From: Anaerolineaceae bacterium
Lineage (GTDB): Bacteria; Chloroflexota; Anaerolineae; Anaerolineales; Anaerolineaceae
Reading direction: 5' to 3'
Assembly: GCA_019429225.1 (NCBI GenBank)
Contig: JAHYJK010000015.1
Span: forward strand, 1-35,471
Length of the DNA stretch: 35,471 nucleotides
Shown: in pieces, positions 23,980-33,811 of the stretch
Position numbering within the stretch: position 1 is the first letter of the stretch
Layout: each line of letters begins with the position of its first letter
The notes under the pieces: model-generated
Told to the model about the DNA's origin: nothing
Database searches by the model: none
Seen by the model: only the letters and a program-made list of their open reading frames with translations
Program-made: the position numbers and the translations under genes

Positions 23980-25899
23980 ATGGTCAATTGGATCGAAGGT
24001 TTCATTAATCTTGTTCGAACAATAAACGATATCCTTACAGCGGGGATCGCAATAACAGCATTTTCTTTGTTATTGTATGCATTAAAATTCAATCTCAAAG
24101 ATCGGGTTGCCCGATCTTTTGCTATGATACTGGTTTGTGTAGTGATTGTTTTCACTGCTGAAGCCTTAGGTGGAATCGCTGTTGATGAAACAAATATGGA
24201 GTTCTGGCTTAAATTACAATGGCTGGGAATTGTTTTGTTACCACCGACGTATTTACATTTTTCTGATGCGCTTGTTGCAACGACGGGTCGCCCCAGCCGG
24301 TGGCGACGACGTTGGGCGGTACGAATTACTTATTTATTCTCTTTATTCTTATTAATTCTCATTCCATTTGATATTCTTGTAGGTTCAATTACGACGGATC
24401 AGGTCTCTGCTCCCCATCTTGAAAGAACTTTGATCACAGAATTATTCACCATCTACTATTGGATCATTATGCTCCTTTCGTGGATCAATTTTTTCAGGGC
24501 ATACATTCGTACTGTCACACCTGTCAGTCGACGCAGGATGGGGTATTTAGTTGTTGGTGCACTGGCTCCTGCAATAGGATCATTCCCCTTCTTGTTGTAT
24601 GGTTCTGGTATGGCAGATCGCCTGGCTGGAATGTTCTGGATTGTAGCCATGCTTAGCAACCTGATCTTCTACTTTTTGATTATCATGATGGCATATGCTG
24701 TGGCATTTTTTGGGGTTGCCTGGTCAGATCGGGTGGTAAAAACCAGATTGCTTAAATGGATTATGCGTGGTCCTGTGACTGCAAGTATTACACTGGGATT
24801 AACAACGATCGTCAGACGAACAGGGGCTGTTTTTGGTTATGATTTTGAAGTATTTATACCGATTTTCATGGTGGCAACAATTGTGGTCTTTCAACACTTG
24901 ATCACGCTCTTATCACCGTTGGGAGAGAAGTGGTTCTTCTATGGTAACGATCAAAAAGATATTGAAATCTTACAGACTCTGGAAAATAGATTACTGACCC
25001 GAAATGATCTTTTAGAGTTTCTGGAGATGATTTTATCAGCACTGATGGATAGATTACAGTCATCTGGCTCATTTATCGTTTCGATCAATGAAGATGGACT
25101 TGAATTGGTGCTTACGAATGGAAAAATTCAGTTTAACGATCAAAAGATTTCTGATGAACTATCAAAAATAGTTACTGAAAATGATGATTTTCCTGAAATC
25201 TTCCAATGGGAAAACACTTCTTTATTCCCTTTAAAATCAAGAATGAATGGGGATCAAGAGCAAAAACAATTGATTGGAATCCTGGGATTAGCAGGTGTTG
25301 ACATAAGTGAACTGGACGATGAACAAAAAAGTGCATTAACGATGATGGTTGAAAGAGCTTCTTCAGCATTAAGTGATCGACGGATGCAAATCCAGATTTT
25401 TGAATCCATGGAAAAATTAAGCTCGAGAGTTAATACCATTCAACAATTAAGGTCTCGAGGCCGATATGATCGTGAACGCGTCTTTTCTGTTGATGATCCA
25501 ATTCAAAGTGGAGACTTATCCACCTGGGTTAAAGATGCTCTCACACATTTTTGGGGAGGGCCGAAATTAACCGATAATCCATTACTGGAATTGCAAGTAG
25601 TTCAGGAAGCCGCTGAAGAGGGGGAAGGTAATAAAGCGAATGCATTACGCTCCATTTTAAGAGATGCCATAAACCAGGTAAAACCTGAGGGCGAAAGACG
25701 CTTTACAGCAGAATGGATACTGTATAATATTTTAGAGATGAAGTTTTTGGAAGGAAGAAAAGTTCGGGAAATCGCCATCAAATTATCCATGTCAGAGGCT
25801 GATTTATATAGAAAACAAAGGGTGGCGATCGAAACGGTTGCCAACAAAATCATTGAAATGGAAAAAGAAGCGCGCAATGAAGACATTAGCACTGATTAA
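23980..25899 (+). CDS. Membrane sensor with 7TM-type N-terminus and C-terminal helix-turn-helix
   Basis: A 639-residue protein. Residues 1-320 are multi-spanning; the block WLKLQWLGIVLLPPTYLHFS is typical of the 7TM domain found at the N-terminus of some histidine kinases. Additional hydrophobic helices follow (about 270-315). Residues 325-470 look like a GAF-type sensor domain (ILQTLENRLLTRNDLLEFLE and LIGILGLAGVDISELDDEQK). No histidine-kinase H-box, N-box or G-box is present. The C-terminus (573-639) is helical and resembles a sigma-region-4-like HTH (FLEGRKVREIAIKLSMSEAD then LYRKQRVAIETVANKI). This layout suggests a one-component, membrane-bound transcription regulator that senses a membrane or hydrophobic signal. 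Ligand and targets are unknown. Confidence 0.75.
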   Translation: MVNWIEGFINLVRTINDILTAGIAITAFSLLLYALKFNLKDRVARSFAMILVCVVIVFTAEALGGIAVDETNMEFWLKLQWLGIVLLPPTYLHFSDALVATTGRPSRWRRRWAVRITYLFSLFLLILIPFDILVGSITTDQVSAPHLERTLITELFTIYYWIIMLLSWINFFRAYIRTVTPVSRRRMGYLVVGALAPAIGSFPFLLYGSGMADRLAGMFWIVAMLSNLIFYFLIIMMAYAVAFFGVAWSDRVVKTRLLKWIMRGPVTASITLGLTTIVRRTGAVFGYDFEVFIPIFMVATIVVFQHLITLLSPLGEKWFFYGNDQKDIEILQTLENRLLTRNDLLEFLEMILSALMDRLQSSGSFIVSINEDGLELVLTNGKIQFNDQKISDELSKIVTENDDFPEIFQWENTSLFPLKSRMNGDQEQKQLIGILGLAGVDISELDDEQKSALTMMVERASSALSDRRMQIQIFESMEKLSSRVNTIQQLRSRGRYDRERVFSVDDPIQSGDLSTWVKDALTHFWGGPKLTDNPLLELQVVQEAAEEGEGNKANALRSILRDAINQVKPEGERRFTAEWILYNILEMKFLEGRKVREIAIKLSMSEADLYRKQRVAIETVANKIIEMEKEARNEDISTD

Positions 25900-29187: not shown

Positions 29188-29829
29188 TTGGATAATTCTG
29201 AAAAGAAAAAATTAAGTTTTTCTGACCTGATGAGAATAAAATTCAAAGGAATTCTGGACCCGATTGGTGGGTTCCTCAACAACCTTGGTCTCAAACCGAA
29301 TATGATCACCATTCTGGGGTTGATTGGTCACGTTATTTCCGCAATATTTATTGCATTTGGGGAAATCATGTGGGGCGGTATTATTATGCTAGTATTTGCT
29401 CCCATCGATGCGCTCGATGGCACCATGGCACGACTCAGAAACGAGCCAACACGCTTTGGTGGCTTTGTTGATTCAGTCACTGATCGTTATTCAGAACTGA
29501 TTGTTTTTGCTGGTTTGTTGTATCATTTTGCGAAACTGCAAGACACATTGGCAATTATGCTGGTTTTCTTTGCCGCAGCAGGTTCCATTATGGTTTCCTA
29601 TAACAGAGCACGCGCAGAAGCATTGCATTATGATGCAAAAGTTGGCATTATGACCAGGTTGGAACGCTTGATCATTCTGATCCCATGTCTGATTTTCAAT
29701 ATTCCATTGGTGGCTTTATGGGTTCTGGCAATCCTGGCGAACTTCACCGCAATACAAAGAATTTGGTCAGTTCGCAAACAGGCTTATCTTGCTCAGGATG
29801 TTGTGGGATTAAAAAAAGATATTAAATAG
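29188..29829 (+). CDS. CDP-alcohol phosphatidyltransferase
   Basis: A 213-residue membrane enzyme that joins a CDP-activated lipid to an alcohol. The family signature DxxDGxxARxxxxxxxxGxxxDxxxD is present as DALDGTMARLRNEP (from D74), then FGGFVDSVTDR. It is preceded by GLKPNMITILGLIGH. About six membrane segments are expected. The product could be phosphatidylglycerophosphate, a phosphatidylinositol phosphate or another phospholipid; the sequence alone does not decide. Start is TTG at 29188 with AAGGTGG upstream; the next ATG, 14 codons on, would lose a conserved charged stretch. lgt follows after 9 bases. Confidence 0.82.
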   Translation: MDNSEKKKLSFSDLMRIKFKGILDPIGGFLNNLGLKPNMITILGLIGHVISAIFIAFGEIMWGGIIMLVFAPIDALDGTMARLRNEPTRFGGFVDSVTDRYSELIVFAGLLYHFAKLQDTLAIMLVFFAAAGSIMVSYNRARAEALHYDAKVGIMTRLERLIILIPCLIFNIPLVALWVLAILANFTAIQRIWSVRKQAYLAQDVVGLKKDIK

Positions 29830-29838
29830 AGGTGAAAA

Positions 29839-30681
29839 ATGCCCGAAGGTTTTTATATTGGTAAATTATTTATACATTTTTATGGCGTCATTATTATGTT
29901 TGGCGCAGTATTGGCAGCATGGCTTGCAACGGTTGAAGCCAAACGTCGAGGTCATAATCCGGATATCGTTTGGGATGTGATGCCTTGGCTTTTAATTGCT
30001 GGTATTATTGGTGCCAGAATCTGGCATATTCTCACACCCCCAGCCTCCATGGTTGAAATGGGAATCACAACCCAATACTATTTGACACATCCTTTGGATG
30101 CGATCAATATTCGTGCAGGTGGATTGGGAATTCCAGGAGCAGTCATGGGTGGCGCTTTGGCATTATGGCTCTATACCCGGAAAAAGAAATTAAGTTTTGC
30201 TTCCTGGGTGGATATTATTGCTCCTGGTCTGGCTCTTGCTCAGGCAGTCGGCAGATGGGGAAATTTCATTAACCAGGAACTGTATGGTGCACCAACGAAC
30301 CTTCCCTGGGCCATCTTTATTGAACCTTCTCGCAGATTAGCAGAATACATGGATGTGGCATATTACCACCCGATGTTCTTATATGAATCCTTGTGGAATT
30401 TAATGAATATGGCAGTTTTATTAATTCTTGGGCGTAAATTAAAAGAGAAACTATTCAGAGGTGATATTTTCCTGATTTATCTGGTTATTTATCCGTTAGG
30501 CAGGTTCTTTTTAGAATTGATTCGTCTAGATCCATCTAATGTGGGTGGAATCAATGCGAACCAGACGATCATGGCGATCATCGCTATTTCATCATTGATC
30601 ATACTCGTTTTAAAGAGAACGATATTAAAAGATAAACAAAGTTTAGAAGAGTTTCCAGTTGTTCTGCAGAAGGCTGGTTAG
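29839..30681 (+). CDS. lgt: Prolipoprotein diacylglyceryl transferase
   Basis: A 280-residue membrane enzyme that attaches diacylglycerol from phosphatidylglycerol to the lipobox cysteine, the first step of lipoprotein maturation. The signature is GRWGNFINQE (138-147). Other family blocks are IRAGGLGIPGAVMGG and HPMFLYESLWNL, and the C-terminal YPLGRFFLELIRLD. Seven membrane segments are expected. AGAGGTG precedes the ATG. It acts before LspA, which is encoded at 19203 in a different operon of the same window. The ABC transporter genes follow in the same direction. Confidence 0.94.
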   Translation: MPEGFYIGKLFIHFYGVIIMFGAVLAAWLATVEAKRRGHNPDIVWDVMPWLLIAGIIGARIWHILTPPASMVEMGITTQYYLTHPLDAINIRAGGLGIPGAVMGGALALWLYTRKKKLSFASWVDIIAPGLALAQAVGRWGNFINQELYGAPTNLPWAIFIEPSRRLAEYMDVAYYHPMFLYESLWNLMNMAVLLILGRKLKEKLFRGDIFLIYLVIYPLGRFFLELIRLDPSNVGGINANQTIMAIIAISSLIILVLKRTILKDKQSLEEFPVVLQKAG

Positions 30682-30714: not shown

Positions 30715-31647
30715 TTGATAGAAACGCAGGAGCTGACCAAAATCTTTGACGATTTTACGGCAGTTAATCATGTAACTCTGAATGTTCATTCTGGCCAAAT
30801 CCTTGCATTATTAGGCCCGAATGGTGCTGGAAAAACGACCACTGTTCGAATGCTGTCATCCATACTCAGACCCAGTAGTGGTTGGGCAAGAGTAGCCGGT
30901 TATGATGTATATACCCAACCCTCAGAAGTTCGCAAGATGGTGGGTGTGTTAACTGAACACCATGGTCTATATGGCAGAATGAACGCTGACGAATATCTGA
31001 TTTTCTTTGGTGAACTATATGGATATTCACGATCCCACATATTGAGAAAAATCAATCCCCTTTTAGAACAATTAGGGATGGATCAATATCGCAAGAAACG
31101 CCTGGGTGAATACTCAAAAGGAATGCGTCAAAAATTAGCGCTTGTGAGAGCCCTCATTCATGAGCCCCCGGTTTTGTTACTGGATGAGCCAACCTCTGCG
31201 ATGGATCCTGAAAGTGCGAGGATTGTTCGTACAGCCATAAAAAGTTTGAGTAACAAGGAACGGACAATCATTTTGTGCACACACAATCTGGTGGAAGCAG
31301 AAGAATTGTGTGATCAAATTTCTATCATACAGGAAGGCAGCATAATCTTAAATAAATCCATGCAGGAAGTAAAAAATTCACTGGTTGGATCCCCTGTTTT
31401 TGCTGCAAAATTTGTTGCTTCTATGGATGGAAAATTTTTTGATTTACCTGATGGCGTTCAAATGGTAAACCGTAATGAAAGTACAATTTATTTTAAGGTG
31501 GAGAAACCGACCATTCAAAATCCTGTTTTGATTCGTTTACTGACTGAAAAATACGATTTGTTATCCTTTGAAGAAGTTCCAATTAAATTAGAAGATGCTT
31601 ATATGGGTGCAATTAACCAGATCAAAAAGAACAATAATGATGAGTAA
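30715..31647 (+). CDS. ABC transporter ATP-binding protein
   Basis: A 310-residue ABC ATPase. Walker A GPNGAGKTT is at 34-42. The Q-loop region is followed by the signature YSKGMRQKLALVRALIH, Walker B LLLDEPTSAMDPE (D157, E158) and the H-loop LCTHNLVEAEEL. The C-terminal 90 residues form the extra domain seen in drug/lipid exporters and NatA/CcmA-like ATPases. TTG at 30715 has GAGG upstream; no nearby ATG fits. The gene overlaps the permease gene by 8-11 bases, so the two act as a pair. The substrate is not known. Confidence 0.88.
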   Translation: MIETQELTKIFDDFTAVNHVTLNVHSGQILALLGPNGAGKTTTVRMLSSILRPSSGWARVAGYDVYTQPSEVRKMVGVLTEHHGLYGRMNADEYLIFFGELYGYSRSHILRKINPLLEQLGMDQYRKKRLGEYSKGMRQKLALVRALIHEPPVLLLDEPTSAMDPESARIVRTAIKSLSNKERTIILCTHNLVEAEELCDQISIIQEGSIILNKSMQEVKNSLVGSPVFAAKFVASMDGKFFDLPDGVQMVNRNESTIYFKVEKPTIQNPVLIRLLTEKYDLLSFEEVPIKLEDAYMGAINQIKKNNNDE

Positions 31648-33058
31648 TCAACTGAAACTTGCCCTGGTGATTACGAAACGAGAAGTACGCGATCAATTTC
31701 GGGATTGGCGCATTATTTTTCCTATCCTTGGATTGACAATATTCTTTCCATTTTTAATGAATTTCACAACAGCGCAAGTTCTCCAATTTGTCAACCGGTA
31801 CGGAGCAACAATCGTTGGTGAACGACTGGTTCCATTTTCGATGATGATCGTTGGCTTCTTTCCAATCTCGGTTTCATTGGTAATTGCCTTAGAGAGTTTT
31901 GTGGGAGAAAAAGAACGTGGAAGTATCGAACCTTTATTCAATACCCCATTATTGGATTGGCAAATCTATATCGGAAAGTTGATTTCCTCGATTGTACCGC
32001 CATTGTTTGCCAGTTTTGTGGGTATGTTGGTGTATTGTGTTGGATTGATTATCAACGATGTTCCATTACCGGAATTGCACTTAATCATTCAAATCGTTGC
32101 TATTACGATTATTCAGGCTGTTGTGATGGTTGCCGGAGCCGTAGTTGTTTCCACGCAGGCAACATCGGTTCGTGCAGCGAATTTACTGGCGAGTTTTATC
32201 ATTATCCCCATGGCATTGTTAATTCAAGGGGAAAGTATCGTGATGTTTTGGGGAAATTATGCAACCTTGTGGTGGGTTGTTTTTGGCTTGTCCGTTCTGG
32301 CTATCTTATTGTTAAGAATTGGATTGGCACATTTTAGCAGGGAAGAATTACTGGGAAGAGATATTGATGTGCTCAATTTTCGTTGGGGGTGGAAGGTATT
32401 CCGAATGAATTTTCTTGGGAATGCAACCAACCTCAGGAATTGGTATCAATTTGAAGTTTTTCCTTACATCAGAGAAATTCGTTACTCCATCTTAATTCTC
32501 AGCCTGCTTGTTCTGGTAGCTTTCTTTGTAGGAAAGACACAAATAACCAGGTTTGAGCTTCCGGTTGAACAATTAGGTGTGGAAAATATGCAAGCACAAC
32601 TGACTCTTTTGAGTCAGAATTGGTCTTTTGGTGATTTTTCTCCCGTTATCGCCATTTTCTGGCAGAATATTCGGGTTATTTTACTGGCTTTTATTCTGGG
32701 GGTAATTACTTTGGGGATTTTTGGTGTGCTGCCACTATTCGCATCTATCGGAATTGTTGGATACATCATGGGTTTATTAGGTAATGCGGGTTTAAGTGTG
32801 AGTACTTACTTTTTAGGATTTATTCTTCCGCATGGAATTATTGAAATTCCTGCGGCAGTGATTGCTACAGCTGCAATTTTCCAAATTGGCGTTATTCTGG
32901 CTACACCTGATAACCAACAAACAATTGGAGAAGTATGGATCAAATCGATAGCGAATTGGGCAAAAGTAATGCTAGGGCTGGTTATACCCATGATGATTCT
33001 TTCTGCAATGATTGAAGTTTGGGCCACACCTGAGTTAGCGTTATGGTTGATCCCGTGA
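31637..33058 (+). CDS. ABC-2 type permease fused to a SpoIIM domain
   Basis: A 473-residue membrane protein in two parts. Residues about 15-270 form an ABC-2/NatB-type permease with the conserved cytoplasmic segment SFVGEKERGSIEPLFNTPLL (starting near 92) and the GKLIS that follows. Residues about 285-473 match the SpoIIM family (DUF95): FWQNIRVILLAFILGVITLG, then GIVGYIMGLLG, and the diagnostic FILPHGIIEIPAAVIATAAI. SpoIIM is a membrane part of the engulfment machinery in endospore formers, but relatives occur in many non-sporulating bacteria. The start is ATG at 31637 or 31640, inside the end of the ATPase gene. The stop lies five bases from the end of the convergent HNH gene, leaving no room for a terminator. 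Confidence 0.82.
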   Translation: MMSNQLKLALVITKREVRDQFRDWRIIFPILGLTIFFPFLMNFTTAQVLQFVNRYGATIVGERLVPFSMMIVGFFPISVSLVIALESFVGEKERGSIEPLFNTPLLDWQIYIGKLISSIVPPLFASFVGMLVYCVGLIINDVPLPELHLIIQIVAITIIQAVVMVAGAVVVSTQATSVRAANLLASFIIIPMALLIQGESIVMFWGNYATLWWVVFGLSVLAILLLRIGLAHFSREELLGRDIDVLNFRWGWKVFRMNFLGNATNLRNWYQFEVFPYIREIRYSILILSLLVLVAFFVGKTQITRFELPVEQLGVENMQAQLTLLSQNWSFGDFSPVIAIFWQNIRVILLAFILGVITLGIFGVLPLFASIGIVGYIMGLLGNAGLSVSTYFLGFILPHGIIEIPAAVIATAAIFQIGVILATPDNQQTIGEVWIKSIANWAKVMLGLVIPMMILSAMIEVWATPELALWLIP

Positions 33059-33063
33059 CGGCA

Positions 33064-33567
33064 TTACCATCCCTGTAAGAAGGGTAGCCATTCTTCGTCT
33101 GTGAAGTTATTTCTCGCAAAAATATACATTGCATTAGCTGGTGGGGGTTTGGGAATCCGCATTAATTTCATACCAGCATCATGAACCGTTCTGACACCCT
33201 TTTTATGATTACACACAGAACAGGCAGTAACCAGATTCTCCCAGGAGAATTCACCTCCCAGCCGTTTGGGGATAACGTGATCAATGGTGAGATTGGAGGA
33301 ATGATGACCACAATATTGGCAAGTATAATGGTCTCGTCGGAATATTTCTTTGCGGGTAAGATGAACCTGCGCTCTTGGCCGATGAATCATCCTTTGGAGT
33401 CGGATAACGGATGGAATTGGAAACTTTTGGTTGATACTGTAGAAATAACCACGACCATTACATACCAGCGTCGCTTTTTCTGTGAGTATCAGACCAAAGG
33501 CGCGTCTTAAGTCACAGATATTGATTGGTTCAAAATTTGCATTGAGAACAAGAACTTGATCAGACAT
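33064..33567 (-). CDS. HNH endonuclease family protein
   Basis: A 167-residue protein with an HNH nuclease fold. The core is DHYTCQYCGHHSSNLTIDHV, continuing as IPKRLGGEFSWENLV and TACSVCNHKKGVRT. Two Cys pairs bind zinc (CQYC and CSVC), and DHVIPKRLGG carries the metal-binding His. The N-terminus VLVLNANFEPINICDLRRAF is typical of this COG1403 group, so the start at 33567 is preferred. An upstream in-frame ATG at 33624 would add 19 residues. Neither start has a clear ribosome-binding site. Function in the cell is unknown; group members are often single genes outside restriction systems. Confidence 0.82.
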   Translation of the reverse strand: MSDQVLVLNANFEPINICDLRRAFGLILTEKATLVCNGRGYFYSINQKFPIPSVIRLQRMIHRPRAQVHLTRKEIFRRDHYTCQYCGHHSSNLTIDHVIPKRLGGEFSWENLVTACSVCNHKKGVRTVHDAGMKLMRIPKPPPANAMYIFARNNFTDEEWLPFLQGW

Positions 33568-33713
33568 AGTGCTTTGAGAAATTATAGCAGATTCTAAAGT
33601 TTTTGATTCACAAGCATAAGTCATTTATCATGAAAATGAATTTAAGCTTGTTCATAGTACCTGATAACTATACAATTAATGTGATAATGAATTTGAGTGT
33701 TTTTATTATAAAA

Positions 33714-33783
33714 TTGTTAAAATTCTGTAAAAACTTGTTAAACAAATGAAGTTGATATTATTTTGATATTGACTTGTTAACAA
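33714..33783. repeat. Three TTGTTAA motifs, two in palindromic form, upstream of the epimerase-like gene
   Basis: TTGTTAA occurs at 33714-33720, TTGTTAAACAA at 33735-33745 and TTGTTAACAA at 33774-33783, 21 and 39 bases apart. The last two are inverted-repeat forms with shared flanks (AC before, AT after). They lie in the AT-rich gap between divergent genes and could be operator sites for a dimeric regulator. No convincing promoter is seen. Confidence 0.4.
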
Positions 33784-33811
33784 ATCATTGATTTGAAATG
33801 AGGGAAATATT

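Follow-up and report, generated by a model that had tools for sequence, protein, structure and literature searches.

A conserved Chloroflexota family of ABC-2 permeases fused to a SpoIIM domain and paired with an ABC ATPase

Our results revealed, in a 35,471-nucleotide (nt) stretch of an Anaerolineaceae genome (phylum Chloroflexota; assembly GCA_019429225.1, contig JAHYJK010000015.1; hereafter the window), a permease of the ATP-binding cassette (ABC) transporter kind that is a genuine fusion of an ABC-2 half and a SpoIIM half in a single intact open reading frame (ORF). The fusion permease, 473 amino acids (aa) long (31637..33058, + strand), was delineated with Pfam, alignments, and an AlphaFold2 (AF2) model. 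Specifically, the ABC-2 (type V) transmembrane half spans roughly residues 1-245 (31637..32371, + strand), with conserved RDWR and GEKER motifs, a fold match to NosY, and a match to ABC2_membrane_2 (PF12679) over residues 11-190 (E 1e-9; 38.5 bits against a cut-off of 27.2). The linker and SpoIIM half, a helical bundle in the AF2 model, follow over residues 245-473 (32369..33055, + strand); SpoIIM (PF01944) matches residues 286-465 (E 1.4e-20; 74.3 bits against a cut-off of 26.9) from position 3 to position 163 of a 163-position profile, i.e., the whole domain. The original prediction, made from the letters of the window, had proposed just such an ABC-2 half followed by a full SpoIIM half, and both assignments held. 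The frame opens with an ATG at 31637, its stop codon ends at 33058, and there are 0 internal stops. The earliest possible start is 31595, while the start at 31637 gives an 11-nt overlap with the stop of the upstream ATPase gene, overlaps of 4-11 nt between the two genes being frequent among relatives.

The fusion is a conserved family and no chance event. Species genomes were scanned with the family alignment, using patterns from the N-terminal half (N-half), which confirmed 446 relatives, and we kept 80 with a Chloroflexota group in the title (Chloroflexi, Chloroflexota, Anaerolineae, or a genus presumed to belong to the phylum, such as Candidatus Aquidulcis in L144; hereafter the named relatives or loci). 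Both halves lie within one frame in 80/80 of these, which makes a frameshift artefact joining two genes, raised in the original prediction as a finding that would undo the fusion, unlikely. When C-terminal halves were scanned separately, the SpoIIM match returned in 75/75 members, and the relative in locus L072 is 93% identical to the window. More broadly, 104 of 399 sampled genomes of the phylum matched the family model at E 1e-30 or better; 98 of the 104 cover the model almost end to end (one bearing an in-frame TAG, by reading of the rows), and 4 align solely to positions 1-300, three loci of this group (L222, L223, and L224) holding a diverged SpoIIM half. Of the other two, the match in genome G043 is split by a frame break, and that in genome G035 is limited to model positions 78-242 and is probably a paralogue. 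Within the family of the window, a near-full-length match was obtained in 40 of 121 genomes, with fragments in G512, G533, and G565. A tblastn search of plasmids with the whole fusion returned solely short matches, in three Pediococcus plasmids. Some individual loci deserve mention. In genome G043, the permease (L189:6104-7610) is broken into two overlapping frames of 430 and 101 aa, by a frameshift or a sequencing error. L088 and L089 are two copies from a single genome, inverted relative to each other and ~66 kb apart on Levilinea saccharolytica contig_12, as a real inverted duplication or an assembly artefact, and genome G488 repeats this two-copy pattern.

The pairing of the permease with an ATPase is near-obligate. 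In the window, the partner is a 310-aa ABC ATPase directly upstream (30715..31647, + strand) with a DrrA/GldA-like nucleotide-binding domain, which matches ABC_tran (E 1.1e-29; Pfam), scores 264 bits against TIGR01188 (under the cut-off of 312), and has a legible Walker A, signature, Walker B, and H-loop. In the ATPase ORFs of the named loci, these motifs recur as follows: Walker B and the H-loop in 78/78, the ABC signature pattern in 77/78 (L105 has FSKGMSQK, outside the tested pattern), and Walker A in 75/78 (the misses, L100, L106, and L134, are contig-end cuts). Every named locus with >1 kb of upstream DNA (75/75) has the ATPase directly upstream, mostly overlapping. The pairing also recurs in 29 of 33 diverged fused loci, a chosen set, with the ATPase ≤400 nt upstream in 26 and fused to the permease in 3; in L052, it lies ~0.5 kb away. 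The earlier proposal that the fusion works with an ATPase is therefore supported, and the comparison across Chloroflexota that it called for found the ATPase always adjoining where visible among the named relatives.

Further, the ATPase, ABC-2, and SpoIIM parts stay together across the phylum in three layouts. The window's form, a separate ATPase gene followed by ABC2-SpoIIM, is joined by a form with two ABC-2 halves and one SpoIIM half, 740-760 aa long in 6/6 such loci read (L059, L060, L061, L068, L228, and L229), five of which have an ATPase gene directly upstream. The 33 of the 399 phylum genomes that gave a tandem second N-half match all belong to families f23 and f33, and their open frames measure 740-869 aa. 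This form shows that one SpoIIM is able to serve two ABC-2 halves and suggests that SpoIIM is an added module and no replacement for the second transmembrane half, which weakens the idea that it substitutes for a second ABC-2 half. In the remaining layout, ATPase, ABC-2, and SpoIIM share a single frame, with ORFs of 928-1037 aa in L182, L183, and L185. A fourth locus from this genus, L184, has a separate ATPase, so that the fully fused form stands at 3/4 loci read. The frame start in L182 and L183 overlaps, in a different frame, a gene for a cytidine diphosphate (CDP)-alcohol phosphatidyltransferase (CDP-OH-P synthase), and, estimated from where the ATPase match begins, these two proteins are probably nearer 835 aa than full ORF length. 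The single-frame form is direct evidence for a joint function of the three parts, and the gene layouts indicate that they make up one machine.

The predicted structure and the conserved residues are consistent with this arrangement. The AF2 model of the whole permease has a predicted local distance difference test score (pLDDT) of 84.6 and a predicted template-modelling score (pTM) of 0.77. In a fold search with this model, residues 7-238 superposed on NosY (7o0z_E) with Z 21.6 and a root-mean-square deviation of 2.8 over 218 aligned residues, and NosY is also the only solved relative of the N-half by sequence (E 1.7e-6). Matches to ABCG, ABCA, and PmtCD reached Z 14-16 (ABCG2 and ABCA7 ~16), and the N-half is predicted to adopt the type V ABC transmembrane fold. 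The SpoIIM half modelled alone scored higher (pLDDT 93.6, pTM 0.90); its fold search returned values in the chance range for helical models (best Foldseek E 0.62, to MlaE; best VIA Z 5.6), and a PDB sequence search with the SpoIIM profile returned nothing up to E 10. The absent fold match of this predicted structure is no proof of a new fold.

Conservation was read from three alignments: one of 25 sequences (the window plus 24 loci chosen for a fused ORF), one of 79 sequences (the window plus the named loci other than the L089 copy and L141, which is truncated at a contig end, i.e., 78 of the 80), and one of the window plus 74 of the 80. G90, E91, E93, R94, and E98 are invariant in both the 25- and the 79-sequence alignments, as are 4/5 positions of the GEKER segment. 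These invariant columns mark the segment GEKERGSIEPLL (residues 90-101; 31904..31939, + strand) as the likely coupling helix contacting the ATPase, a role that we presume from type V ABC structures. The likely ATPase-facing motif is hence mostly invariant. In the SpoIIM core, a stretch shared by fused and stand-alone SpoIIM (32666..33018, + strand) contains the polar residues N344, H399, E403, and E460, which sit inside long predicted helices in the AF2 model and are near-invariant across 124 fused rows (near-copies included) and a further 46 from other SpoIIM, among them L186 and a piece of the broken L189; the misses in these rows are gaps. The exceptions are a change of E460 to Q in L222, L223, and L224 and of H399 to N in L226.

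A single origin of the ABC-fused SpoIIM domains is possible, judging from their phylogeny. In a tree of 93 SpoIIM-domain rows, which keeps 13 order-level fused rows and L231 and drops L189, L198, and matches shorter than ~110 residues, a supported branch (97/98) separates the 44 ABC-fused rows and L186 from stand-alone SpoIIM found in this phylum, at times in the very same genome (e.g., G163, G067, and G012); the bootstrap is unsettled and several branches are long, leaving finer details unsure. L186 (6254-8017) is a single ORF in which a PMT_2 mannosyltransferase-like region and a C-terminal SpoIIM region are joined, and its SpoIIM nests among the ABC-fused ones. On a Halostagnicola plasmid (L220:2756-4294), SpoIIM ends a 512-aa protein, preceded by a weak, sub-cut-off DUF7847 match; SpoIIM thus occurs as a C-terminal module elsewhere too.

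The original prediction had noted that SpoIIM normally belongs to the sporulation machinery, which is a poor guide in this phylum, where 146 of 301 sampled genomes carry a SpoIIM; likewise, published work records SpoIIM in many non-spore-forming bacteria (PMC5898192). SpoIIM in this phylum is no marker of sporulation. In the window's genome (4.2 Mb, 97.9% complete), the fusion is the only SpoIIM match, and neither SpoIID (PF08486) nor SpoIIP (PF07454) gave a match, while a Bacillus subtilis control was positive for both. A sporulation role was set aside on this ground, and the earlier statement that no other sporulation-specific gene is seen stands for SpoIID and SpoIIP, the two families tested.

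Compared with known systems, the pair combines familiar parts in an arrangement of its own. The N-half is alike in sequence and fold to NosY of NosFY (PDB 7o0y and others), but the NosY match stops at model residue 236-240, ahead of the SpoIIM half, and no NosD-like or N2O reductase gene was found among the nine window proteins scanned with Pfam, the rest of the genome not having been searched. ABCG/ABCA-type and PmtCD exporters share the N-half fold at low identity (6-16%), but the window permease alone bears a C-terminal SpoIIM module. With the DMP complex of Bacillus, in which SpoIIM is thought to scaffold the hydrolases SpoIID and SpoIIP (PMC9600426), the common element is PF01944; the window differs in that its genome is without a SpoIID or SpoIIP match and its SpoIIM is fused to an ABC half paired with an ATPase. 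In archaea, arCOG01994 and arCOG01996 share the SpoIIM domain, and some arCOG01996 loci have a SalXY-family ABC transporter (PMC5898192, PMC4158269); these are separate genes, with arCOG01996 adjoining Yip1-like proteins, and no ABC-2 fusion is described in the portions consulted. A part in membrane remodelling has been proposed for archaeal SpoIIM (PMC5898192).

The most instructive likeness may be with circular-bacteriocin export and immunity modules of the As-48C, LcyD, and PumC1 kind, where a SpoIIM membrane protein also occurs with an ABC ATPase. Every circular-bacteriocin cluster is said to contain a SpoIIM protein, with an ABC ATPase among the shared genes (PMC6131525, PMC5695211, PMC10888436). 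According to PMC6131525, DUF95 (i.e., SpoIIM) proteins are presumed to aid circularisation, and loss of the DUF95 gene lcyD leaves mature circular product in the cells. In these modules, SpoIIM is a separate gene (170 aa in L218, 171 aa in L217) with bacteriocin genes alongside, whereas in the window it is fused. Both proteins share, by reading, the PHGxxE stretch and a later E with the fusion. The L218 plasmid locus runs bacteriocin, large protein, SpoIIM, and ABC ATPase. In L217 (1946-4243, Priestia megaterium plasmid p2), an ABC ATPase lies just upstream of a YIP1 family protein, four circular-bacteriocin genes, and SpoIIM.

We tentatively favor, at a little short of even confidence, the reading that the pair is an ABC exporter with SpoIIM as an accessory gate, and we do so on the conserved linkage of the three parts, the fold of the N-half, and the bacteriocin precedent, with its company of SpoIIM and an ABC ATPase and its retention of product upon lcyD loss. 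In this reading, the engine would be of the type V kind, built from a pair of ATPases and a pair of ABC-2 halves, each ABC-2 half carrying a SpoIIM bundle via a cytoplasmic linker. ATP binding and hydrolysis would drive a rocking motion of the two ABC-2 halves, and the SpoIIM bundle, which contains the polar N/H/E/E residues, would take up a hydrophobic substrate (peptide or lipid-like) and release it on the outer side, a role modelled on the seeming part of SpoIIM in circular-bacteriocin export. Three observations weigh against this exporter. NosY, the nearest solved sequence relative, belongs to a system described as force-transmitting and not as exporting. In the tree, SpoIIM from bacteriocin loci does not cluster with the fused domains, so that their likeness is one by analogy. 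Finally, three of the 33 diverged fused loci (L059, L191, and L197) have no such ATPase in the DNA examined. The main rival, which we regard as unlikely while taking it seriously, is a force-transmitting machine, in which ATPase and ABC-2 would move the SpoIIM bundle and thereby recruit or switch an envelope enzyme or bend the membrane, with no substrate crossing; FtsEX, which acts on cell-wall hydrolases, and NosFY, which acts on copper delivery, are its models. Beyond the NosY match in sequence and fold, it would accommodate the scaffold role thought for Bacillus SpoIIM and the remodelling proposed for archaeal SpoIIM. However, the genome is without a SpoIID or SpoIIP match, no peptidoglycan hydrolase stands beside the pair among the recurring neighbours scanned, and the gene that does recur downstream encodes a metallo-β-lactamase (MBL)-fold hydrolase, which is also retained in three of six loci that lack the pair.

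Two further alternatives to the exporter concern the SpoIIM half itself. It might work as an intramembrane enzyme, processing whatever substrate is exported, a reading that we consider very doubtful. The near-invariant N344, H399, E403, and E460 within long helices would suit an enzyme, as would the presumed help of DUF95 in circularisation, and the NCBIfam ABC permease/CPBP protease family (NF041647) offers a parallel layout, to which the N-half matches weakly (15.8 bits against a cut-off of 435, outside the family). The changes of E460 to Q in three loci and H399 to N in one, with the fusion retained, weaken the enzymatic reading of these residues and fit a polar network better than essential catalysis, and the lcyD knockout still forms circular product. 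It is highly unlikely that the fusion carries SpoIIM as a mere passenger that plays no role in the transporter. The C-half does evolve faster than the N-half: dN/dS (NG86) between the window and two relatives was 0.10-0.11 for the C-half and 0.02-0.03 for the N-half (0.11 vs. 0.03 in the nearest pair; dS is saturated for the second relative, making that ratio rough). Even so, these rates indicate purifying selection on both halves, SpoIIM is kept in all 80 named relatives, a set found by N-half patterns, its polar core is near-invariant, and it has survived two rearrangements.

The neighbouring genes bear on another candidate, a transporter of phospholipids or lipoproteins linked with Lgt or with the CDP-OH-P synthase, which could be a special case of the exporter and which we rate as improbable. 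Upstream of the pair in the window lie the CDP-OH-P synthase gene (29188..29829, + strand; PF01066, E 2.4e-16) and lgt (29839..30681, + strand; LGT, E 6.3e-67), the latter probably outside the machine. Both are common companions among the named loci with >3 kb upstream, lgt in 65/67 and the synthase in 59/67. Among 22 fused loci sampled at class or phylum level, on stretches of unequal length, tblastn found lgt in just 4 and the synthase in 8. In L182 (3943-4470), L183 (5639-6145), and L184 (5570-5989), a synthase relative ends just ahead of the ATPase part. Hence, the synthase may have accompanied the pair for longer than lgt, and these positions may point to an old tie between the pair and phospholipid synthesis. 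Against a lipid transporter, six same-family genomes selected for absence of the permease all retain the order FtsK, CDP-OH-P synthase, and lgt (6/6), with neither ATPase nor permease after lgt (6/6), the ATPase having been looked for at the lgt locus only. These genes thus do not need the pair. The ATPase and permease genes behave like a cassette to which lgt looks incidental, and a function linked to lgt is weakened by the loci that retain lgt without the pair. The lipid or envelope link of the original prediction is accordingly weak at best, and the constant adjacency to lgt that it proposed to check holds in nearly all named loci and fails at class and phylum level.

On the other side of the pair, a small HNH endonuclease gene (33064..33624, - strand; Pfam) lies 5 nt past the permease. 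An HNH relative was found in 69/80 named loci (tblastn), and 64/80 have, downstream of the permease and on the opposite strand, a conserved family of about the size of the HNH gene. With gaps of 33 nt ahead of the ATPase and 5 nt past the permease, there is no room directly beside the pair for a small-peptide or bacteriocin precursor gene, and the gap at 33625-33811 is without an ORF >48 aa, no profile search of all small ORFs having been made. The MBL-fold hydrolase follows the permease on the same strand in 55/80 named loci (e.g., L074:9299-10204); it does not adjoin the window permease, and it comes immediately after lgt in the pairless loci L210, L211, and L212. Neighbour counts from filtered ORFs, such as the 64/80 above, are lower bounds, as longer antisense ORFs can hide genes. 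Farther away in the window, 23980-25899 encodes a 639-aa protein with an N-terminal seven-transmembrane histidine-kinase region and no kinase domain (Pfam, E 0.1), a relative of which occurs in 45/80 named loci.

To place the finding, ABC-2 and SpoIIM are both known families, and what is new is their union in an ABC transporter that carries its own SpoIIM module and comes in three layouts; no published description of an ABC-2/SpoIIM fusion was found in the literature searched, most subscription journals being outside the search. SpoIIM is widespread and poorly understood beyond sporulation, and its fusion with an ABC half, at times with the ATPase as well, points to the type of engine involved. 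The family also offers one- or two-gene targets for structure and knockout. The phylum-wide fusions, as 1:1 and 2:1 forms and as an ATPase-ABC2-SpoIIM chain, supply covalent evidence for a wider reading, speculative and on balance rather unlikely, in which SpoIIM/DUF95 in general would be a membrane module powered by ABC engines, serving as a gate or hand-over chamber in partnership with an ATPase. If true, circular-bacteriocin export, the archaeal SpoIIM/Yip1/ABC cassettes, and envelope export in Chloroflexota would be one mechanism, and other SpoIIM proteins may have an unseen motor partner.

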